Assembly: GCA_023665555.1 (NCBI GenBank)
Contig: JAMPDR010000001.1
Location: 1 to 64,000, forward strand
DNA: 64,000 nucleotides
Reading direction: 5' to 3'
DNA from: Ruminococcus sp.
GTDB lineage: Bacteria; Bacillota; Clostridia; Oscillospirales; Acutalibacteraceae
Shown: positions 46,683 through 60,429 of the stretch, piece by piece
Layout of the letters: each line of letters opens with the position of its first letter
Position numbering within the stretch: position 1 is the first letter of the stretch
Notes under the pieces: model-generated
What the model saw: the letters and a program-made list of their open reading frames with translations, nothing else
Databases searched by the model: none
Told to the model about the DNA's origin: nothing
Position numbers and translations under genes: made by a program

Positions 46683-47876
46683 TTATTCAGCGTCACCTGT
46701 ATTATTAGAAGCTGCGTTAGTCATCGGTTCCTCAATAGCGATTGCTGAATAAACTCTTGTAAGTGCGCCTGACTTTCTGGTTTCAATCAACGACTTTTCT
46801 TGATTGAAGTCGATGTCGAAATCGGTAAAGTGAGTAACTTCACCCTTCTTTGTAGCACCAAGAGTATAGTCAGTAAGATTTACAATAAGACCGAGAAGTT
46901 TCTTAACAGAACCGTCTTCTGTCTTTCTCGTCTTATCTGCGAACTTTTCAACTGTATGAATATCGCCTACATTGAGCGCCATAGCGATATCTGAAACTGT
47001 GTTGTAAATTCTTCTGCCGTTCATGTCACGAGCAAGAAGCATAACATTGAGCATATGCGGAGTGCAGAAGAAATCGGGTTTACCTGTACCACGATACTTC
47101 TCTCTTGCATGAAGAATGGTGTTAATCATTGACTCTGCATAAATGAAGTTCTTGCCGAAATGTGCACCGGTATCAGTACCCTGAAGCTCTGTCTTCATAG
47201 CATTAATGTCAACATCAACGTGAAGAGTATAAAGATCGTTATCAAGCCAAATCGGTCTGATATGATCTTCCGGAATTTTATCGTCTGAGCCATCCTCACG
47301 ACCGTCACTGATAAGAATTGCTGTTGCAAGTTCTTCTTTCAGCATCATAAGGTCAATTCCGTACATATACGCAACATAATCGAAGTCGATATCAACTATA
47401 TCGTCTCTGTTTAAAGCATTCTTGACGTAAATTGTATAAGGATCGGTGGTTCTGGAAACCAGCTTAAAGTTGCCCGTAAGCTGTTTTTCTTTACCTTTCT
47501 TATAACCCTTCGCTCTGAGTTCCTTAATTTCACGAATATCAGCCTGACGAGTTCTGATTCTTGACATCGGAGCTTTGTGAACTTTTCGCATAACAGCTTC
47601 AACCCAACCTTGGTCATCTGTAATGAGTTCAGGTGCACCGGGTCTCACGTCCTGATAATCAGGGAACAGATCGTGAACTGAACCCTCACCTGTCTGCGCA
47701 AAGCCACCGCTAAGAGCATCATGCTGGAGATTATTGTCTTCTGCATATTTCTCCATAGCTGCTCTCAGGCTGCCGCATGAAGATGACTTAGCCATGTTAA
47801 GAATCTGCATCTGAGCCGAATGGGTAAGTACATTTTTGTCTTTTGTATCATTCTTATCGAATACATTGTGTTTCAT
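46683..47876 (-). CDS. Major capsid protein from an internal start
   Basis: Within the fusion gene, AAGGAGG (47893-47887) stands exactly ten bases before ATG at 47876 (MKHNVFDKNDTKDKNV). Translation from there would give a 397-residue capsid protein containing the complete HK97 fold (for example DIVDIDFDYVAYMYGIDLM, SALTRVYSAIAIEEP-like end). A site of that quality inside a gene is unlikely by chance at the exact domain boundary. It offers a way to set the capsid-to-protease ratio. Confidence 0.7.
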   Translation of the reverse strand: MKHNVFDKNDTKDKNVLTHSAQMQILNMAKSSSCGSLRAAMEKYAEDNNLQHDALSGGFAQTGEGSVHDLFPDYQDVRPGAPELITDDQGWVEAVMRKVHKAPMSRIRTRQADIREIKELRAKGYKKGKEKQLTGNFKLVSRTTDPYTIYVKNALNRDDIVDIDFDYVAYMYGIDLMMLKEELATAILISDGREDGSDDKIPEDHIRPIWLDNDLYTLHVDVDINAMKTELQGTDTGAHFGKNFIYAESMINTILHAREKYRGTGKPDFFCTPHMLNVMLLARDMNGRRIYNTVSDIAMALNVGDIHTVEKFADKTRKTEDGSVKKLLGLIVNLTDYTLGATKKGEVTHFTDFDIDFNQEKSLIETRKSGALTRVYSAIAIEEPMTNAASNNTGDAE

Positions 47877-48518
47877 AGTTTTGTTTCCTCCTTCTGGATT
47901 ATCATCATTTGTTTCGTCGTCTTCATCTCCCTCAAGGGTCTGAGCGACAATTGCATAAACTGCTGTTTTCTGCTTTTCACTCAAAGAATTAAAAACTTCT
48001 CCGAGTGTTTCTTCACCATCGTCTTTTTCGGATTTGCTTCCTTCTTCATTGTCATCCTTATCCGAATGAGCCAACGAAAGGGTTTCTCCTGTATAGATGA
48101 TAGCTTCTCCGTCGTGGTCATCACTGTGCGCAATTACGGATTCAATAAACGCACCGGGGTTAGCTCCTGCATGAACCAGACTGAGTTCCCTGATGTTTCC
48201 GTATGTAACATTCGGACCTTGCTGTTTTAGCTGATTCGCATAAATTGAAAGCTGATTAAGGTCTCCATGCTGAACAAGAACCTTTGCCAGTTTTCCTGAT
48301 TCGGTGTCATTGAATGAGCAATATGCGTACACGCCTTCTTCACGGTTTTCAAGCAACGCATGCCCCAAAACGTCGTCAGGTGAATCATGCTGATGATTCC
48401 AAACCAACGGTACGGTTTGTCCGTTGTTGTTTTTAAAAGCATCTTTATTAATGATTCTTCCATCGGAGCATTTAATATTGGCTTTAGTTGCCCAACCGCT
48501 AAAATCAAAATTTTCCAT
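46683..48518 (-). CDS. Prohead protease-major capsid protein fusion
   Basis: The 611-residue polyprotein has an N-terminal HK97-type (U35) prohead protease domain (about 1-140; H42 in LVWNHQH, S113 in IRELSLVHAGANP) and a scaffold-like acidic linker (about 150-214). An HK97-fold capsid protein runs from about 215. Cleavage of the linker in the prohead is expected. The ATG at 48518 has AAGGAGG eleven bases upstream; longer frames overlap the portal gene. A strong internal start at residue 215 would also make capsid protein directly. Confidence 0.9.
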   Translation of the reverse strand: MENFDFSGWATKANIKCSDGRIINKDAFKNNNGQTVPLVWNHQHDSPDDVLGHALLENREEGVYAYCSFNDTESGKLAKVLVQHGDLNQLSIYANQLKQQGPNVTYGNIRELSLVHAGANPGAFIESVIAHSDDHDGEAIIYTGETLSLAHSDKDDNEEGSKSEKDDGEETLGEVFNSLSEKQKTAVYAIVAQTLEGDEDDETNDDNPEGGNKTMKHNVFDKNDTKDKNVLTHSAQMQILNMAKSSSCGSLRAAMEKYAEDNNLQHDALSGGFAQTGEGSVHDLFPDYQDVRPGAPELITDDQGWVEAVMRKVHKAPMSRIRTRQADIREIKELRAKGYKKGKEKQLTGNFKLVSRTTDPYTIYVKNALNRDDIVDIDFDYVAYMYGIDLMMLKEELATAILISDGREDGSDDKIPEDHIRPIWLDNDLYTLHVDVDINAMKTELQGTDTGAHFGKNFIYAESMINTILHAREKYRGTGKPDFFCTPHMLNVMLLARDMNGRRIYNTVSDIAMALNVGDIHTVEKFADKTRKTEDGSVKKLLGLIVNLTDYTLGATKKGEVTHFTDFDIDFNQEKSLIETRKSGALTRVYSAIAIEEPMTNAASNNTGDAE

Positions 48519-48525
48519 TTTGAAT

Positions 48526-49764
48526 TTATCCTCCTTCTTCTGTTGATTGTGTTTCAGTATTTTCGCCGACTTCAGCCAATCTTTCATTTGACTGATTGAT
48601 GTTACTATTTACCAACTGATCAGCTTTTGGATCGTCTGATGGTTTCATACCGATTACTTGTCGGATCTCATTCGACGTCATAATCTCATTTCGTGTGAAC
48701 TTGTCCGCAATTTCAGCCATGCTGTTAACCGGTACAAGCCTGAACGGATCTCTGAAGAACAAGATCGTGTTGTGTTGTGTTCTTGCTGTTTTTGTAAGAA
48801 ACTTTCGTCTCATTTCCTCGACTATCGCCAAAACAATTGGTTCGATAGTGCGATTCATATAGTTAAGCATCGTCTGCTCGTCAGCAGTACCATCTAATAT
48901 GCTTTGAGTGATTCCTAACTGGCTGTATAGCATACTCGTCAAATACTCAATCTGCTTCATTAGATTGTTGTCGACAGGACGATTTAACTGTGTGATACGT
49001 TCGGAAGCATCTATATAACCGATACCGTATTTAGAACCGTGTAATTGTTGATCCAAATCCCTGCGGCGTTCTTCTGCTTGCTTACGCCGAGCTTCGGTTT
49101 TAATCATGTAAGGCAGCTGAATAATCATATCCAATTTTCCCGATCCGCTTTGCTCATCAATGGCGTCAAGAATGTTCAGCTTTCTAATCAGACGCTGCAT
49201 AGTAGAGTTAGGTTCGTTAATAACTGTATAAAATGGATTTTCAATGATTCCCACAGACTTTTTCGGAAGTATAAGATCTTCTTTTAAACCCGTCCGATCG
49301 TTATATACCCGAACCTTCACATCTCTTGGATACCAGTCCAATATTCTGCCCGTTCGCATAGACTCAATATCATAGCTACCTGTAGTGATGTCCATGGTTG
49401 TATCTACCGGCACCATGGCAACATCTCCATCATCAAGCATAGATAGAACTACGTCATGAATAAAAGCTCTGCCCGTCTGATCGACATTCGCTTCAAGTGT
49501 CAGGCACTTGTTCAAGCCGGTATCACGAACTGATTCAAATCTACCATTCTCATCCAATTTGCAATGATTGAGATTTATCGCTGAAACATCCAATGCAATC
49601 TTGTTATATACAGATGTGACTATCGAACGTTCATTGCCTCTCGAAAATCTCGTGCGATCCGGTCGGTAAGAATAGCCCATTCCTATATCATGGGAATAGT
49701 TTGTCGGATCCTTGTTATTCACAAATGCATTCCAACCATGCTGAAGTCTGGTTCTTATACTCAT
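48526..49764 (-). CDS. Portal protein
   Basis: The 412-residue protein matches HK97-type portals: SIVTSVYNKIALDVSAINLNH near the N-terminus, NRPVDNNLMKQIEYLTSMLYSQLGITQSIL in the wing/crown part and LFFRDPFRLVP. The C-terminal tail is acidic and polar. It forms the dodecameric entry pore at one capsid vertex. It lies between TerL and the capsid gene. Confidence 0.9.
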   Translation of the reverse strand: MSIRTRLQHGWNAFVNNKDPTNYSHDIGMGYSYRPDRTRFSRGNERSIVTSVYNKIALDVSAINLNHCKLDENGRFESVRDTGLNKCLTLEANVDQTGRAFIHDVVLSMLDDGDVAMVPVDTTMDITTGSYDIESMRTGRILDWYPRDVKVRVYNDRTGLKEDLILPKKSVGIIENPFYTVINEPNSTMQRLIRKLNILDAIDEQSGSGKLDMIIQLPYMIKTEARRKQAEERRRDLDQQLHGSKYGIGYIDASERITQLNRPVDNNLMKQIEYLTSMLYSQLGITQSILDGTADEQTMLNYMNRTIEPIVLAIVEEMRRKFLTKTARTQHNTILFFRDPFRLVPVNSMAEIADKFTRNEIMTSNEIRQVIGMKPSDDPKADQLVNSNINQSNERLAEVGENTETQSTEEGG

Positions 49765-49782: not shown

Positions 49783-51528
49783 TTAATCAAATGCATCTCT
49801 ATTAACTTTAAAAGCGACATAAGCATCCATCAGTGCCGCAACGGCGTCGATTTTATGCTCATATCGCGCTTTTAACAGTTTTCTGTTTCCGTTTGTGTCT
49901 TCCATAACAATACAGTTACCCATGGTATATGTCATGAGTTCCTCATCGAATAAGAGCATTCTGTCCTCTGCAAGTTTCTTCAACTCACCCAGCGGAACTG
50001 ATTCAGTTTTCATACCTTGAATTATTTTTTCGATTCCGAACGGTCCGTTTTCAGTCGACCAACGTTCAACAAATTCCTTAGCGTTATATGGGTCGTATCC
50101 GAAGCATCTGACATCGTAATCTCTTTCAATAATATGGTTGTCTACATCTTCATACACCTGCATCATGTCAAGCACGGTTCCCTGCATAACAATTAGCGAG
50201 CCCTCATTGATAAACTCTTCGTATTTAACACGCATTGCCATCGGCAGTTTATTCAATGTACGTTCGGTTATATAGTTTCGTGTCTTTATACCGAAAGAAC
50301 CGTTTGACAACGGAAACAAGAACGTAAAGGCACAGAAGTCATCACCTTGAGAAAGGTCAGCTCCAAGCGCACAAGGCAATTGCCAATAATCACGTTTACG
50401 ATGTTTGAGAGTTTCCTCATATGTAAAGAAGTACGTGCAGCCTTCCATTGGCAAGCCGAAACGTTTCGCAAGTATGTCATTTCTTGCTGCGGGAACTTTC
50501 TCTGCTCTCTCGACTTCACGCTGATATGTTTCATAAGTTACCGTTTTGCCGAGATTCGGGTTAGCTTTCAGCCACATTTCAGGATTTGATACTTCGTCAA
50601 CAGAATCGAGCTTGTACCACCAAATAGAAACGTGCGGGTTGATGTATTCTCCTTTGAGAATACTCATAAGTTCCATCTTGATTGTGTCGCCAACACCGTT
50701 ACGAACAGTACCTTCCGAACTGGTAGCGATAATCAGATAGTCATCGACTTTCGAAGCACCCTGCTCTATAGCACCAATTACATCTTCCTTCGTATCGCCG
50801 GAAAGCCATTCATCAACCGTGGCATACTTAACTCGCAAGCCCTGAAGTTTATCAATAGCCATCGGTCTGACTTCGAGCAACGAATTTGTAAATAGGTTTT
50901 CAATTCCTTTTTTGGTTGAAGCAAGCTTTACCCTATTAATTTTCGAACCTGTGGTATTTTGAATTGAGCCGTATGTCAAGAACTTAAACAGAGGACCTCT
51001 CGAACGAGCGATTGCTGTACGAATCGGTGACATTACTTCATCAGCCAATTTCATGGTTGGTGCTGTGGTTATCTGATGTGTAGTAGAAGTATCTACATTT
51101 TCACCATATGCTTGCATCCAAGCATCATATAAAGATTTAGCAGCACCCCTTCCAACGATGAGGTACTGCTTATTAATCAATCTTCTTTTAATTTTTCTCA
51201 GAACATAGTGACCGCCATGTCCGTTTGCATTGGGTTCATAAACGCTTCTCTCTTCGAAGTAAAACCAACTCAAAGCTGCTTCTGCCCATAGTTTAAAACT
51301 ATCGAGAAGTTTTACATCAGAGCCATCGGTCAGTGTCATTTCGTCTTCACAAAACTTAACCCAACCGTCAATGGCTTCGTCGTCATAGTAAACACCGGGA
51401 TTGGCGATCAAGTCGTCAATTCGGTTCATCTCCATGGCAACTTCTTTGTTGACTGGAATTTCGCCTCGAATTACGGCATCTCTAAACCTGCCGTAATACT
51501 TTGGTGTGGCAGTATTAGATAATGACAT
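49783..51528 (-). CDS. terL: Terminase large subunit
   Basis: The 581-residue protein is the packaging motor. The ATPase part has the Walker A-like VGRGAAKS at 125-132 and TTAPTMKLADEV. The C-terminal nuclease part begins with ALGADLSQGDDFCAF and continues to FGYDPYNAKEFVE and AVAALMDAYVAF. Length and order fit HK97/phage large terminases. The 79-base gap upstream carries the promoter of an oppositely oriented gene pair. Confidence 0.93.
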   Translation of the reverse strand: MSLSNTATPKYYGRFRDAVIRGEIPVNKEVAMEMNRIDDLIANPGVYYDDEAIDGWVKFCEDEMTLTDGSDVKLLDSFKLWAEAALSWFYFEERSVYEPNANGHGGHYVLRKIKRRLINKQYLIVGRGAAKSLYDAWMQAYGENVDTSTTHQITTAPTMKLADEVMSPIRTAIARSRGPLFKFLTYGSIQNTTGSKINRVKLASTKKGIENLFTNSLLEVRPMAIDKLQGLRVKYATVDEWLSGDTKEDVIGAIEQGASKVDDYLIIATSSEGTVRNGVGDTIKMELMSILKGEYINPHVSIWWYKLDSVDEVSNPEMWLKANPNLGKTVTYETYQREVERAEKVPAARNDILAKRFGLPMEGCTYFFTYEETLKHRKRDYWQLPCALGADLSQGDDFCAFTFLFPLSNGSFGIKTRNYITERTLNKLPMAMRVKYEEFINEGSLIVMQGTVLDMMQVYEDVDNHIIERDYDVRCFGYDPYNAKEFVERWSTENGPFGIEKIIQGMKTESVPLGELKKLAEDRMLLFDEELMTYTMGNCIVMEDTNGNRKLLKARYEHKIDAVAALMDAYVAFKVNRDAFD

Positions 51529-52214: not shown

Positions 52215-52640
52215 TCATTTATTCTTTGGTTTAGGTGCAATATAGCCTGCTGCTTCTTTACCGTTCCACTCTTTCGTTAAGCCGCCTTTAATCAGGTATA
52301 GCATAGCACCGGTGACAACAGTGGTCGCCACTTTTTTACCACTTTGAGATAAAACATCTGCAACAAACTTACTGCCCGGTTTTATCTCTTCTTTGGTCAT
52401 GTCCTTAAGCTGTTTTTCAAGTTTAATACGCTCGATTCTTTTCTTGATTTCCTCGTCGGACAGCGTTCGTCTGTTCTTCGAGGCTTTTTTCATCTCACGT
52501 TTTCTTTCTTTGCGAGCGTCTTTTTCGCTGCGTGCCTGAGATTGATTTTGATTTTGTGAACGGTCAATCGGATAAGGCGGTCCGTTCTGTTCGCCCCATT
52601 TCATGCCTTTGATGCCATGATGTTCAAGTGTATCGCTCAT
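52215..52640 (-). CDS. Phage head-module protein with HHGIKGMKWG motif
   Basis: The 141-residue protein begins MSDTLEHHGIKGMKWGEQNG, a motif found at the N-termini of varied proteins encoded near phage terminase and portal genes. It then has a highly basic helical region and a hydrophobic segment (KVATTVVTGAMLYLIKGGL). GAGGAGG precedes the ATG, which overlaps the upstream stop. The role is unknown; the motif may be a virion-targeting signal (inference). Confidence 0.68.
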   Translation of the reverse strand: MSDTLEHHGIKGMKWGEQNGPPYPIDRSQNQNQSQARSEKDARKERKREMKKASKNRRTLSDEEIKKRIERIKLEKQLKDMTKEEIKPGSKFVADVLSQSGKKVATTVVTGAMLYLIKGGLTKEWNGKEAAGYIAPKPKNK

Positions 52641-53014
52641 CAGCTTTCCTCCTCTTTTGATTGAGATGTTTCTGCTTGGTGGTTCAATCTCCATTCCAAC
52701 TCAGACACTGTTCTGGTCATAGCTTCCATAACTGCTGAGCTGGTAGGAGGATCAAATACGAGTTTAACTTTCATATAGATATAGGTTTTGATTGCACTGA
52801 AGTTTTTAGAATCTTCTTGGGGCAATGTCGAAAAGAAATTGTCCCAAGTCGGCACATCATCGTCTATACTAAACGGTGCGGAACTCCCGACTCCGATTTG
52901 AGCCAATGTCATAAAAACAGTGTTGATATGAACGAGTATATCTTCGTCGAAATATGTGTAATCTTCGGTAATGCCGAGGAGTTTTTTTATTGTTGCAAGT
53001 ATACTTTCTTCCAT
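52640..53014 (-). CDS. Head-tail connector, gp6-like
   Basis: The 124-residue helical protein (ILATIKKLLGITEDYTYFDEDILVHINTVFMTLAQIGVG...YIYMKVKLVFDPP...ELEWRLNH) shows the pattern of HK97 gp6/YqbG-type connector proteins that form a ring below the portal. Here it lies upstream of TerL rather than after the capsid gene. Confidence 0.75.
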   Translation of the reverse strand: MEESILATIKKLLGITEDYTYFDEDILVHINTVFMTLAQIGVGSSAPFSIDDDVPTWDNFFSTLPQEDSKNFSAIKTYIYMKVKLVFDPPTSSAVMEAMTRTVSELEWRLNHQAETSQSKEEES

Positions 53015-54100: not shown

Positions 54101-54156
54101 TCTTTTCGTCTCCTTTAATATAATTTTCCACCACTTATGGTTAAGTTTTAATAGTA

Positions 54157-54367
54157 TTTAGCCAATATTTAAAAGGACTCGCAAAGCCATACAAAAATCT
54201 TGAAAGGAGAAAAATACGAAAAGAAAAAAGGACACGAAGTGAAAAAACTCTGACTTCACAAGTCCCTTTAAATATCGGCTAAAAACATTTTCAAAAAATA
54301 ACCTCCGGAGAATTTTTTAGGAGGCCGGCGATGCAGGGGGAGGGGTGTATTTTTCGTACCCCCTCCC
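54157..54367. other. Structured non-coding region, candidate cos site
   Basis: The 274-base gap upstream of the small terminase gene holds a 23-base inverted repeat (54157-54179/54261-54283, 21 of 23 matching) around an inner GTGAA/TTCAC hairpin. It is followed by a GC-rich stretch with GGGAGGGG (54338-54345) facing CCCCTCCC (54360-54367). The GC-rich part stands out in AT-rich DNA, and no gene is seen. Such features beside terS fit a packaging (cos) region. Confidence 0.5.
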
Positions 54368-54374
54368 TATGCCA

Positions 54375-54617
54375 TTATTGTTCTGTAGAGTATGCTTTCT
54401 GGTATATGTTCAACGGATCATACTTGATTATCTCATCAATCGCTCGCTCTATCTCCGCATCGTTCTCGGAATCAGAGAGTTGATCCGAAGTTCTTGCGAT
54501 TCTTCCAAGATATTCACAAGAATTGTAACCTTTTTCAACATCAAACAAAAACCAAGCATCAAATTGTTCAAATGGATCAAAAGGATTGTCAACTGTTGTC
54601 AACATAACTTTAGACAT
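54375..54617 (-). CDS. Small phage protein paired with the RNA-polymerase-like gene
   Basis: The 80-residue acidic protein (MSKVMLTTVDNPFDPFEQFDAWFLFDVEKGYNSCEYLGRIARTSDQL) belongs to a small family that I recall as usually directly following the 'HYG...RYPWGSG' protein, as here with 18 bases between. AAGGAG precedes the ATG. Its role is unknown. Confidence 0.68.
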   Translation of the reverse strand: MSKVMLTTVDNPFDPFEQFDAWFLFDVEKGYNSCEYLGRIARTSDQLSDSENDAEIERAIDEIIKYDPLNIYQKAYSTEQ

Positions 54618-54635: not shown

Positions 54636-57335
54636 TTATTGGTTTAAATACTTTGTAACTGTACTAGAAGAAACACCAAGCGCGGCAGCAATTTCCGAAG
54701 TCGTATAGCCCGAAATTCTCATTGTTGAAATCTTGTTAATTTTAGCTTGACTCAGTTTTGTTGTTGCTCTTGGAGTAGCTCTTTGACGCAATTCATCAAG
54801 GTCAACATTATTAATAATGTCTTTAAGCTTATTTTCACTAATTGCGCCAGCTTGAATTGCTTCCCATTCTCTGTCAGTCAACTTAATAGATACTCGTTTA
54901 GCGCCAACAGCCAGTCTTGCTGCCGTTAATGCCTGTTGAGATACTTTCTTTTGCTCTTTTTTAGACATATCAGGGTTATCTTGTTTCTTTGCTTTCACTG
55001 TAGCATTAGCTATTAACTGAGCTTGTCTTTCTCTTGGCGCATTTTTTAATGCCAGATTCAACTTGGACTCCAGACAACTCACCTCATACTTGTAAGTTTC
55101 TTTAGCCGAAGCTGAAAGAGGTATTTTGCCGGTTACCATTATCTCTTTTCGTGCCTGATTGGCAAGAGACTTCATCTTATTGGCATAGTCGGCATATATC
55201 TCTTCTTTCTTGGTGCCTGACGAAAGGGTGTGTGCATCTCGGGTCTCCGCCATCTTAGTGCTAGCTTGAGTCCTGACCTTAACTTTTCCTGTTTTAGGAT
55301 CAGTATATTCTTCATAGACTTCTTTATATTGCAATTCGCCTGTTTCAGGATCTGGTTTTGGGGTACCCTTACGCTTCAACACCGATACCTCTGACTTGGC
55401 TCTGGACAGTAGTGTGGCGGCTCCCTCGTGATACTTGCCGTCACTATCAACCGTACCCTGATACTTTTTCTTTAAAGCCGCTATGCCGTTGTCAATCTCA
55501 CTCTGCTTGTAGTCTAACTTATGCTTCTCTGCATCTATGACTACCATACTGTGTCTAACTGCTCTGGCAAGTTCATCTGATGTAGCACCCTTCAGGGTCA
55601 TATCCGTAATCAAATTAGATATTTTACCCATCTCTGTCTGGGTATTTTTCATAATCTTCATGCCCTCACGCTGAGGATATGACATTTTAGGATCGAACCC
55701 TTTCAACCCCTCCAATGCCGGTGTAGAAGTTATCTTAACTTTTCCACCAGTAGGTATTACCATTACAGTGTCACCATCAAAATCAGCACCGGACAAACGT
55801 TCAGCAACCTTACTATTGATACCTACAGCGTCTATAGCATTGCCTAATATTCTTTTAGCATCCGCCTGCTTATTATTAACGGTAAGTATCGGTATCTCGA
55901 ACGTTCCGCCATGAGGATATCTTATAAGTGCTACTTGCTCGCCATTGTTATAATTAGGGGCATAGACTTCGTTATCTTTCATTGTCGTAATCGGTAAGAT
56001 TACCTGATACTTCTGTCTTGGTAATGCCGCTGCCTGCAAATGAACAGCTGCTGAATCGCAATCATCCGCAAATGACTTCAACAACGCTTTCTTTACAGTC
56101 GGATTAGTCAAAGAACAGATTTCATCATATTCAGCCTGTTTATCCGCTGACGCCAAATTAAGTTGTTTGGTTATCAACGACATACTCTGTTTCGCTAAGA
56201 ATTGAGATGGAAGATGGTCACTCCATTCTCCCCAGTCACCCTCTTCTGCTCGTTTATTGATAAGAGACAATGATTGCTTCTTACCGGTTATTGGATCGGT
56301 GTATTTGCCATTAGGATCATCATAATAGCTCTGACCACCATGCTCTTTAATCAATGAGCCAAATGGATTATCCGGGTCATCTTTAATCTTTTTGAGAACC
56401 TCTGTTGTTGGGGTTCCGACTTTTTTATTAGTGTTGAAACGCACATCAATGCCATCGGGCAAATCATCCGAATATATAGCCATGCCTTTGATATAATGAG
56501 TACCATCAACCATGATACGAACCTGAGCATAATGTGAATTGCCGAGCGATAGATCTTCAACACCTCTTCTGATTTCAACAACACCATCTTTATCAATTCC
56601 GCCTTCTTCGGCATAGCGAATCTTTAATCTGGATGAACTCATACTCTCAGGATATTCAAAAGCTTTTCGGAATGAATCGCCACCGTCATATGATATGTAA
56701 TCATGCACTGAATGAATATTCTGGAAATCATAAATATCTTTATACTCAGTTCCGGGTGGGCAGATAACTTTAATATTGGTTTGCTTACCGGGATTGGTTA
56801 CCTGCGGAACGCCTGCTCCGTAAACAGGATAACCTTCGGCTTCGAGAATAGACAGTGCTTGTGTGAGCTTTTCTCGTGATACATTAAGTTCACGCTCAAC
56901 TCCGGCACCAACGTCAATCATACCCTTTTCTTCAATCTGGGATTTAAGGAAATCGGCTGTTTTTCTTGCTTGCTTCATGCGAGCTTCAGAATCTTCGTTG
57001 AGAAGCGATCTTACAGACGAATCATTGTTGTAGCCCATCTTTGCAGCAATCTCATTGAGTGAGTATCCTTTATCTCTGAGACTTTTTGCAGTGTCAACAT
57101 CAATGGATCTTTGTTCTGCTTTAGCTAATGATTTTTGAGCTCTGAAATCAGTAGTTGTCAAGCCCATGCTTTTTGCAATTTCGGTATCACTCAAACCTTG
57201 CTTCTTCAATTCGCTTATGCGGCTGAGAAAATCGCCGCTATGTTGATAAGGATTATCTCCTGATCCCCACGGGTATCTGCCGGAACGTCTTTTTACACCA
57301 TAATGTATCAATATGTTTTCTGCTACAGGATTCAT
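54636..57335 (-). CDS. Phage protein with double-psi-beta-barrel RNA polymerase signature and HTH motifs
   Basis: The 899-residue protein starts MNPVAENILIHYGVKRRSGR-YPWGSG. Two HTH-like repeats follow at about 42-114 (LKKQGLSDTEIAKSMGL; LRDKGYSLNEIAAKMGY), and another ends the protein (ISGYTTSEIAAALGVSSSTV). In the centre IRYPHGG (R472, P474, H475) is followed 46 residues later by SGADFDGDTV with D518, D520 and D522. This is the spacing and sequence of the R-x-P and NADFDGD motifs of the RNA polymerase beta' subunit and of single-chain YonO/QDE-1-type polymerases. A phage-encoded DNA- or RNA-dependent RNA polymerase is therefore likely. GAGGAG precedes the ATG. Confidence 0.78.
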   Translation of the reverse strand: MNPVAENILIHYGVKRRSGRYPWGSGDNPYQHSGDFLSRISELKKQGLSDTEIAKSMGLTTTDFRAQKSLAKAEQRSIDVDTAKSLRDKGYSLNEIAAKMGYNNDSSVRSLLNEDSEARMKQARKTADFLKSQIEEKGMIDVGAGVERELNVSREKLTQALSILEAEGYPVYGAGVPQVTNPGKQTNIKVICPPGTEYKDIYDFQNIHSVHDYISYDGGDSFRKAFEYPESMSSSRLKIRYAEEGGIDKDGVVEIRRGVEDLSLGNSHYAQVRIMVDGTHYIKGMAIYSDDLPDGIDVRFNTNKKVGTPTTEVLKKIKDDPDNPFGSLIKEHGGQSYYDDPNGKYTDPITGKKQSLSLINKRAEEGDWGEWSDHLPSQFLAKQSMSLITKQLNLASADKQAEYDEICSLTNPTVKKALLKSFADDCDSAAVHLQAAALPRQKYQVILPITTMKDNEVYAPNYNNGEQVALIRYPHGGTFEIPILTVNNKQADAKRILGNAIDAVGINSKVAERLSGADFDGDTVMVIPTGGKVKITSTPALEGLKGFDPKMSYPQREGMKIMKNTQTEMGKISNLITDMTLKGATSDELARAVRHSMVVIDAEKHKLDYKQSEIDNGIAALKKKYQGTVDSDGKYHEGAATLLSRAKSEVSVLKRKGTPKPDPETGELQYKEVYEEYTDPKTGKVKVRTQASTKMAETRDAHTLSSGTKKEEIYADYANKMKSLANQARKEIMVTGKIPLSASAKETYKYEVSCLESKLNLALKNAPRERQAQLIANATVKAKKQDNPDMSKKEQKKVSQQALTAARLAVGAKRVSIKLTDREWEAIQAGAISENKLKDIINNVDLDELRQRATPRATTKLSQAKINKISTMRISGYTTSEIAAALGVSSSTVTKYLNQ

Positions 57336-57338
57336 AAC

Positions 57339-57896
57339 TTAGCACTCCTCTGATTTAATTTTTGAAATGATTTTGTCAAAAGTAATTATCTTGTCCATAA
57401 TTGGGGCAATATCTTCGGCCGTCGGTTTATGACAAAGAACTTCGTCAGACTGATAAAGTCTTAATTCCATATCAATGTTTCCCGGCTTGACGTGATATTC
57501 CAAACAAAATAAAGCAGCATATATCTCAAGCTGCTTTATATTAGCCGGTGATGTACCAGTTTTCAAATCATGGATTCTCAGAAGATTTTTTCTGAATGAG
57601 ATAGCATCTGCTGTACCGAAACAATTCTCTGAATAAAACAGAGGTTGTTCAGGTGTCATCTTATAGCCTATCGCATCATTGACATACATATTCAATGTCT
57701 TTTGTGAATTGCGCAATTTCTGACCCAGCTTGATACATTTTGCTGCGAACTCGTGAAGTTCGGTTCCTTTTCTGATTGCCATTTGCTTTAGGTAAGTTTC
57801 AGCGATTTTGTCTTCACTGTAATTAACCCAATGATACTTACTTGCGCCCAGAAAGGCGTGCTGTCCTTCGAGGTTGTAATGCTTGTTGAAGTTCAT
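57339..57896 (-). CDS. PD-(D/E)XK nuclease-like protein (RecB/Cas4-type)
   Basis: The 185-residue protein has the core GTADAISFRKNLLRIHDLKTG (Asp of strand 2, then D-x-K) followed by KQLEIYAALFCLEY, the Q-x3-Y helix of RecB-family nucleases. An N-terminal GTELHEFAAKCI helix supplies the first acidic residue. It probably processes DNA ends during replication or recombination. AAGGAGG precedes the ATG, which lies 59 bases inside the previous gene. Confidence 0.75.
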   Translation of the reverse strand: MNFNKHYNLEGQHAFLGASKYHWVNYSEDKIAETYLKQMAIRKGTELHEFAAKCIKLGQKLRNSQKTLNMYVNDAIGYKMTPEQPLFYSENCFGTADAISFRKNLLRIHDLKTGTSPANIKQLEIYAALFCLEYHVKPGNIDMELRLYQSDEVLCHKPTAEDIAPIMDKIITFDKIISKIKSEEC

Positions 57897-58158
57897 ATAA
57901 AACTTCCTCCTTGTTCTTTGGATAAATAAAAGCCGCGAATGACATCCTGTTAAGCAGTTCTACATAATAATCTTGATTAGGTCGGTATGGCGCATCTTCA
58001 TCTTGCTTACCTTCCAATGCTGCCCATTTATCTTTATATAGCATCAATAAATCGGGAAAACCTTGAATTTCATTTGGGTCAACATGTATTATGATGCAAC
58101 CCGGAAAAAGTTCATAAAGCTCATTAACAAGCTTTGTTTTAAATCTGTTTTCTAACAC
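57838..58158 (-). CDS. VRR-NUC-like endonuclease
   Basis: The 106-residue protein has the compact PD-(D/E)XK pattern QGFPDLLMLYKDKWAALEGK, followed by RPNQDYYVELLNRMSFAAFIYP, typical of phage VRR-NUC/Holliday-junction-type nucleases. A GTG at 58158 is favoured because AAAGGA lies nine bases upstream; a TTG three codons earlier is also possible. Its last 59 bases are shared with the next gene in another frame. Confidence 0.72.
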   Translation of the reverse strand: MLENRFKTKLVNELYELFPGCIIIHVDPNEIQGFPDLLMLYKDKWAALEGKQDEDAPYRPNQDYYVELLNRMSFAAFIYPKNKEEVLYELQQALQPRRTARLSGRK

Positions 58159-58188
58159 CTTTTCCAATCCTTTCGTTAAAAATAGAAC

Positions 58189-58239
58189 AAAACAAAAGAG
58201 AGTGTAATATTCATAAAAATGGATATTCTACTCTCTCTT
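58189..58239 (-). terminator. Terminator 2 after the secreted protein gene
   Basis: On the minus strand AGAGAGT...ATATCCAT pairs with ATGAATAT...ACTCTCT (outer arms 58230-58236 and 58197-58203), followed by TTTTGTTTTG. It is the second of two tandem hairpins after the PASTA-like gene and insulates the nuclease genes. Confidence 0.75.
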
Positions 58240-58269
58240 CATAAAAGGCTGTGTTTTTTTCGCGTGCAA

Positions 58270-58301
58270 AAATAAAACCCCATGTCGTTAAACACAGGGT
58301 T
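58270..58301 (-). terminator. Terminator 1 after the secreted protein gene
   Basis: Minus-strand AACCC...GGGTT stem (58301-58297/58280-58276), extended imperfectly through GTGT/ACAT, is followed by TTATTTTTG. It lies 22 bases after the stop codon of the PASTA-like gene. Confidence 0.7.
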
Positions 58302-60370: not shown

Positions 60371-60429
60371 AAAGTTCAACCTCCTTTCCACAATAGGAGG
60401 TGTACTTTTTGCGCATTTTCTTGATTATA

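Follow-up and report, generated by a model that had tools for sequence, protein, structure and literature searches.

The window analysed here, a 64-kb stretch of one Ruminococcus sp. contig, contains part of a prophage that is bounded at about 24.5 kb on one side and by an integrase gene at contig positions 81474-82712 on the other. At 54636-57335 on the minus strand, an open reading frame starting with ATG at 57335 and ending at 54636 encodes a protein of 899 amino acids, hereafter RNAP. The features of this gene and its surroundings are listed below in the direction of transcription.

60384-60414, minus strand: second promoter-like element, GCGCAAAAAGTACACCTCCTATTGTGGAAAG, closely upstream of the start of a small gene (position weight matrix, PWM)
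58276-58301, minus strand: terminator-like hairpin ending the upstream unit, just ahead of the following element (sequence prediction)
58235-58265, minus strand: promoter-like element ACGCGAAAAAAACACAGCCTTTTATGAAGAG, ahead of the VRR-Nuc/exonuclease/RNAP operon (PWM, 18.3 bits; same place in most Clostridia relatives)
57838-58167, minus strand: VRR-Nuc-type endonuclease, first gene of the RNAP operon (phrog_93; VRR-Nuc name from actinophage orthologues)
57339-57896, minus strand: Cas4-like exonuclease, PHROG_3953, ending 3 bases ahead of the RNAP start (profile match)
54636-57335, minus strand: predicted single-chain two-barrel RNA polymerase gene, PHROG_4291 (open reading frame, profile match, fold comparison)
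57246-57317, minus strand: N-terminal tag-like peptide of RNAP, residues 7-30, predicted disordered (conservation, pLDDT, HMM retrieval)
57003-57239, minus strand: N-terminal helical HTH-like units of RNAP, residues 33-111 (predicted secondary structure; weak family matches)
56421-56651, minus strand: predicted lysine barrel (beta-like double-psi barrel), residues 229-305, with Q271, R273, K283-G284 and K304 (structural alignment, invariance)
55746-56036, minus strand: predicted aspartate barrel (beta'-like double-psi barrel), residues 434-530, with R472 and P474 (structural alignment, invariance)
55770-55784, minus strand: predicted metal-binding loop D518-F-D520-G-D522 (motif, invariance)
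54642-54761, minus strand: C-terminal HTH of RNAP, residues 859-898 (Pfam)
54375-54617, minus strand: small conserved gene behind RNAP, PHROG_4303, the last before cos in relatives (profile match, relatives)
54101-54374, no strand: non-coding gap, presumed cos (inferred for the window from the cos position in relatives)
52640-53014, minus strand: connector gene, Phage_connect_2 / PHROG_4247, a lineage marker (profile match)
52215-52694, minus strand: head-module protein with DUF7211 tag LEHHGIKGMKWGEQNGPPYP (profile match)
49783-51528, minus strand: terminase large subunit (profile match)
48526-49764, minus strand: portal (profile match)
46683-48587, minus strand: S78 prohead protease, fused to the capsid protein in the lineage (profile match; fusion per annotation of relatives)

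The first-pass annotation had placed the gene in the head/packaging region of a temperate siphovirus. The temperate siphovirus setting was borne out by the integrase, tape measure, terminase and portal genes. The regional assignment is amended: RNAP is the last large gene of the replication/recombination module and adjoins the head module across the presumed cos gap. Read along the minus strand, the VRR-Nuc, Cas4-like exonuclease, RNAP and PHROG_4303 genes are followed by the 274-bp gap and then by HNH, connector, DUF7211-tagged protein, terminase large subunit, portal and protease/capsid genes. The nuclease-RNAP-small gene order is kept in Gordonia phage Secretariat, Streptomyces phage Bilo, Arthrobacter phage Arcadia, Microbacterium phage Count, Curtobacterium phage Eevee, Rhodococcus phage ReqiPoco6 and Faecalibacterium phage FP_oengus, while in Lactococcus phages P078 and 1706 an endolysin and a few small genes separate the nucleases from RNAP. 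In linear phages the right end has RNAP as its final large gene, and in ReqiPoco6 a 3' cos overhang is located just behind it. Beyond the window, contig positions 66632-70681 encode a 1349-residue DNA polymerase (PHROG_4210) that resembles the helicase-primase-polymerase GP55 of phage 1706 (PMC12205980).

RNAP matched the PHROG_4291 profile over its full length (E 0, 1356 bits, residues 5-898 on profile positions 8-906 of 909), a family named 'RNA-dependent RNA polymerase' both in the catalogue and in RefSeq. According to tblastn, the family is present in 250 of 50,697 phage records, with Arthrobacter (95), Gordonia (55), Streptomyces (54), Lactococcus (13) and others as hosts, and most of these records annotate it as 'helix-turn-helix DNA-binding protein' or 'hypothetical'. 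Further copies came from IMG/VR (at least 111 stretches) and from genome contigs (35), most of them of Clostridia; a plasmid search gave no match. The 113.7-kb record of Arthrobacter phage Paella (MT771347) has two separate places matching RNAP, possibly two polymerases. In same-genus genomes (G003, G005, G006 and G031), ORFs of about 270-1060 residues match PHROG_4291 only around positions 448-578, and these are probably other two-barrel polymerases on other elements. The HTH-like units first read at both ends of the protein are supported by strong C-terminal and weaker N-terminal Pfam matches. Residues 859-898 matched HTH_38 (E 3e-9) as well as HTH_7 and Sigma70_r4_2, and 41 of 42 relatives have a match to HTH_23, HTH_38 or Sigma70_r4_2 there; at the N-terminal side, weak matches were obtained to BcepMu_gp16 (85-125) and HTH_11 (149-173).

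The motifs originally read as signatures of a two-barrel RNA polymerase are located as described: IRYPHGG begins at residue 471, making its arginine R472, SGADFDGDTV begins at residue 515 with its aspartates at D518, D520 and D522, and R472 and D518 lie 46 residues apart. DFDGD occurs a single time in the six-frame translation of the whole window. In an alignment of 46 sequences with identity down to about 40%, taking in the Lactococcus and Gordonia homologues, R472, P474, G477, D518, D520 and D522 of the aspartate barrel are invariant, and by this alignment DFDGD with its upstream R-x-P is no chance motif. Q271, R273, K283, G284 and K304 of the lysine barrel are invariant in the same set. Judged by the KG motif and by where they fall when the structures are aligned, K283 and K304 would be the two catalytic lysines, equivalent to those of QDE-1.

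A full-length AlphaFold2 model built on 42 sequences reached a mean pLDDT of 81.6 and a pTM of 0.66, with residues 1-28 predicted to be disordered (pLDDT under 50); the model of the core (residues 222-738) was better (pLDDT 89.2, pTM 0.78). Searched against the PDB with Foldseek, significant matches were exclusively to two-barrel polymerases, ranked as QDE-1, RDR2, the P74/P32 phage enzymes and then the crAss virion RNAP at E 1e-3. With VIA-align, the core aligned to QDE-1 (2j7n) with a Z of 18.4 over 378 residues at 4.9 A, and the alignment spans both barrels (model residues 228-733 on QDE-1 681-1186). Z was 18.2 for RDR2, 13.8 for P74 gp62 and about 12 for multisubunit RNAPs. The structure test set beforehand for the two-barrel call thus gave alignment over both barrels with QDE-1, RDR2 and the P74/P23-45-type nvRNAPs. 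A sequence search of the PDB with RNAP returned no polymerase; polymerases surfaced by fold comparison only. Because the QDE-1 alignment covers both barrels and the signature residues of both are invariant, it is near certain that RNAP has the fold of a single-chain two-double-psi-barrel polymerase. Both QDE-1 and YonO had been named as relatives, and the fold match to QDE-1 held, whereas the sequence link to YonO proved weak. YonO of SPbeta is likewise a phage-encoded single chain of about 100 kDa with two barrels and DxDGD (PMC5467207), yet there is no full-length sequence similarity; hhalign gave 131 columns around the aspartate loop with a probability of 1.7% and an E of 0.03. The shared stretch pairs R472 with YonO R492, followed by the DxDGD loop and then G-x-I-S-N-x-I-T.

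All the RNAP-bearing phages examined, from Lactococcus to Streptomyces, share a 31-bp element with the consensus TCGCAnGAATTACAnGnCCTATAATGGAA. It precedes early genes, and in most cases the polymerase operon too, and is oriented with the coding strand. In phage 1706, the repeated intergenic sequences contained 670 similar 16-mer pairs versus 5-17 in shuffles, and they resolve to TTTTACAyaynCTATAGTAGA ahead of early genes, with no conserved -35 hexamer. Phage P078, 45% identical to 1706 at the nucleotide level (PMC4110766), has TTTTACATACCCTATAATG at the corresponding positions, and the form in Actinomycetota phages is TCGCAnGAATTACAnnnnCTATAATG. A host-type -35 hexamer was not conserved at the element across the aligned phages, and Sigma-70-type promoter matches in the window were at shuffle level (42 versus 38). 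Using a PWM with each tested genome excluded from training, we found 96 sites over 12 genomes or stretches of RNAP phages; every one of them was on the coding strand, and Markov controls gave 0-0.5 per genome. The element was missing from the two late modules tested (Secretariat 1-20 kb and ReqiPoco6 1-30 kb) and from SPbeta 40-80 kb. In the window's contig, left out of training altogether, the PWM located 12 sites; each is on the minus strand, and ten lie at 75.4-80.3 kb.

Among long Clostridia loci with RNAP, 24 of 26 have at least one site according to a PWM that included sites from the window's contig, and in most of them a copy resembling nCGCGAAAAAAACATnCCCTTTTATGAAGAG precedes RNAP by about 0.9-1.0 kb. 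FP_oengus has one site ahead of the RNAP operon in addition to five within the first 8.8 kb of its sequence. We also scanned IMG/VR with an exact, degenerate form of the element and took contigs of at least 40 kb regardless of gene content; PHROG_4291 was encoded in 29 of the 33 contigs picked in this way. In MT835495 a seed scan showed no excess of the element and the PWM gave just 2 sites. A repeat finder at a strict threshold yielded nothing useful in Bilo or the window's contig, where the PWM located sites. A role as a ribosome-binding element was considered and dropped, since the ReqiPoco6 copy abuts a tRNA-Ala gene; the element would therefore act on transcription rather than translation. 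At FP_oengus 2909-2939 (locus L457), a promoter-like element is likewise followed directly by a tRNA-like sequence; for the 1706 site near 31.1 kb, ARAGORN gave no confirmation of a tRNA. As the element is so constant across two bacterial phyla, it is most simply read by a factor that the phage supplies, and the HTH-bearing polymerase appears to be the best candidate reader. On these sequence comparisons the link of element to polymerase is strong, though all the associations fall within one phage lineage and co-inheritance would thus explain the co-occurrence without direct interaction.

The first-pass annotation had also suggested that the polymerase might be packaged. The N-terminus of RNAP, LMHYGMPRRSGRYPWGSGDNPY, is almost invariant though predicted disordered, and a short tag akin to it, L-x-H-[HY]-G-[VI]-x-G-[MQ]-[KR]-W-G, which corresponds to Pfam DUF7211, is present on head-module proteins that these phages encode. 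Matched directly to DUF7211 (PF23847), the RNAP N-terminus stayed below the gathering cut-off (13.2 versus 27 bits, E 0.061). An HMM built from RNAP residues 1-30 alone retrieved tag proteins as 43 of its 50 top non-RNAP hits, against a background of 342 in 12,269 ORFs that is itself enriched because some ORFs came from loci chosen by the tag; HMMs from control windows elsewhere in RNAP retrieved 0-13. In one RNAP relative (locus L098) the tag is degraded. The tag and RNAP also co-occur: 209 phage records are tagged and 250 have RNAP with a nearly identical host make-up, and among 245 class genomes both occur in the same 3. No mention of the tag sequence turned up in the literature searched.

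The tag usually lies near the N-terminus of the proteins that bear it, and 84 of 90 diverse tagged proteins match DUF7211. A minority of the 90 have papain-fold deamidase (7), 2'-5' RNA ligase-like (4), GNAT, Ntox50 or ADP-ribosyltransferase domains; examples of such effector-domain head-module proteins in relatives, which look as if they were injected cargo, are L120:9829-11379, L154:1486-4569 and L245:14111-15724. At L136:1295-2629, a 445-residue protein combines an N-terminal DUF7211 tag with an HTH very like the C-terminal HTH of RNAP, and GVVRRSGRYPWGTGD, which forms the second half of the N-terminal motif of RNAP, recurs away from any polymerase in an early-region ORF of 331 residues (L013:1901-2893).

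Two orthologues in the databases bear on packaging as well. Lactococcus phage 1706 gp75 and Rhodococcus phage ReqiPoco6 gp106 belong to PHROG_4291, are about 40-51% identical to RNAP and share its operon order, tag position and cos-adjacent gene, and both were deposited as structural protein, ReqiPoco6 gp106 by similarity. In the 1706 deposit, the two-tag protein orf7 has the same label as the RNAP orthologue orf75. The label is the depositors' word; we take that of orf75 to derive from virion mass spectrometry because homology would never suggest it. Two small early-region proteins of 1706, orf62 (L243:45052-45330) and orf71 (L246:1659-2012), neither of which matches Pfam, were also deposited as 'structural protein', so the structural list of 1706 may include contaminants. 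The shared tag and the label of the 1706 orthologue support the packaging suggestion, and RNAP is probably packaged in the virion.

We consider the best explanation, and on balance a probable one, to be that RNAP is a virion-carried DNA-dependent RNA polymerase, packaged by means of its tag, which transcribes early genes from its own 31-bp promoter. The disordered N-terminal tag would take the enzyme into the new head, like other head-module proteins of the lineage; RNAP would then be injected together with the phage DNA and start early-gene transcription at copies of the promoter. The copy ahead of the VRR-Nuc/exonuclease/RNAP operon would let the enzyme drive its own gene. This model draws on what was computed here, namely the fold with its conserved catalytic residues, the presence and position of the element, how it associates with the polymerase, and the similarity of the tags; catalytic activity, reading of the element by the polymerase and packaging we infer. 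The conserved early-gene element supports the earlier suggestion that the enzyme may transcribe phage genes, and its placement lends no support to late-gene transcription as in YonO. More speculatively, it is possible, if somewhat short of probable, that one phage lineage, present in both Bacillota and Actinomycetota, employs the DUF7211-type tag as a general head-loading signal, by which a single particle delivers an RNAP that initiates early transcription at a lineage-wide promoter together with variable effector-like enzymes (papain-fold deamidases, 2'-5' RNA ligase-like, GNAT and toxin-like domains).

Parts of this model have counterparts in known systems. YonO serves late genes (PMC5467207) and is without a tag, whereas the element linked to RNAP marks early genes. 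The P23-45 virion RNAP gp96 and nvRNAP gp64 are also single-chain two-barrel phage enzymes (PMC10770324), and gp64-type enzymes are close structural matches to RNAP (Z 13.5-13.8). In P23-45, gp96 is the virion RNAP for the first genes, a tape-measure fusion without a clamp (PMC10770324); RNAP, in contrast, is a free protein with HTHs and a short tag. In crAss-like phage phi14:2, gp66 (6vr4) is a virion-packaged two-barrel RNAP of one chain, but it is much larger (2166 residues) and belongs to another phage lineage. The proposed behaviour resembles that of the N4 virion RNAP, which is injected and transcribes early genes from its own promoters; that enzyme has a T7-type fold unrelated to RNAP. 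T4 capsid-targeting peptides, MuF toxins (PMC5576092) and polyvalent proteins (PMC5512222) similarly place a short or modular head-targeting part on varied enzymatic cargo, although the DUF7211-type tag differs from these in sequence and its head-targeting role is putative.

The same enzyme and promoter could instead function without packaging, the polymerase being made in the infected cell by host RNAP and then transcribing early/middle genes, while the tag has some other use. YonO, the best studied phage relative, works intracellularly after induction (PMC5467207). RNAP follows directly behind the exonuclease in a replication/recombination operon with the element in front, and an early-made enzyme with its own copy of the element would look the same. 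Nevertheless, the 1706 deposit label and the tag in common with head-module proteins count against this reading, as does the position of RNAP in 1706 and P078, between the endolysin and, across cos, the holin and head genes. Moreover, if the first early promoters need RNAP, some of it must enter with the DNA. We regard this reading as the less likely of the two.

It is also rather unlikely, and somewhat less plausible still, that the element is read by host RNAP with another conserved phage factor, or is the operator of a regulator, with the polymerase merely co-inherited. The 3' half of the element, CTATAAT, resembles a host -10 hexamer, small HTH proteins are encoded in the lineage, and the association of element and polymerase is confined to that one lineage. 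Yet the lack of a conserved -35 hexamer and the near constancy of the element in hosts of two phyla do not fit this account; the copy at the RNAP operon has TTTTAT instead of TATAAT, and conserved HTHs are present in RNAP itself.

An RNA-dependent RNA polymerase, as the names in PHROG_4291 and RefSeq imply, is highly improbable. Its closest folds are indeed QDE-1 and RDR2, but the Pfam RdRP family (PF05183) matched RNAP below its gathering cut-off (18.2 versus 23.8 bits), QDE-1 structures have also been solved with DNA templates (PDB titles), YonO strictly prefers DNA (PMC5467207), and the HTH modules and the DNA element suit a DNA template. Least probable of all is a catalytically dead two-barrel protein serving as a DNA-binding structural part, for, although actinophage annotations read 'helix-turn-helix DNA-binding protein' and the protein may be a virion component, the catalytic residues of both barrels are all invariant.

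We therefore return to the virion-carried, promoter-reading polymerase as the preferred reading. Single-chain two-barrel phage RNAPs, virion RNAPs and the PHROG_4291 family itself are already known; in the literature searched we found no description of a lineage-wide promoter, a tag link or a virion-RNAP reading for PHROG_4291, and 1706 gp75 and ReqiPoco6 gp106 were not named there as promoter-reading virion RNAPs. Hundreds of sequenced phages whose hosts are Streptomyces, Gordonia, Arthrobacter, Lactococcus and gut Clostridia have RNAP under names that hide its role. If the proposal is true, they would provide a large collection of single-chain two-barrel RNAPs together with a predicted promoter, an in vitro system for sigma-free initiation by two-barrel enzymes, a candidate orthogonal polymerase/promoter pair that could serve in actinobacteria and clostridia, and, for siphoviruses, a proposed head-loading tag. 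A family labelled just 'DNA-binding protein' or 'RNA-dependent RNA polymerase' thereby becomes directly testable.
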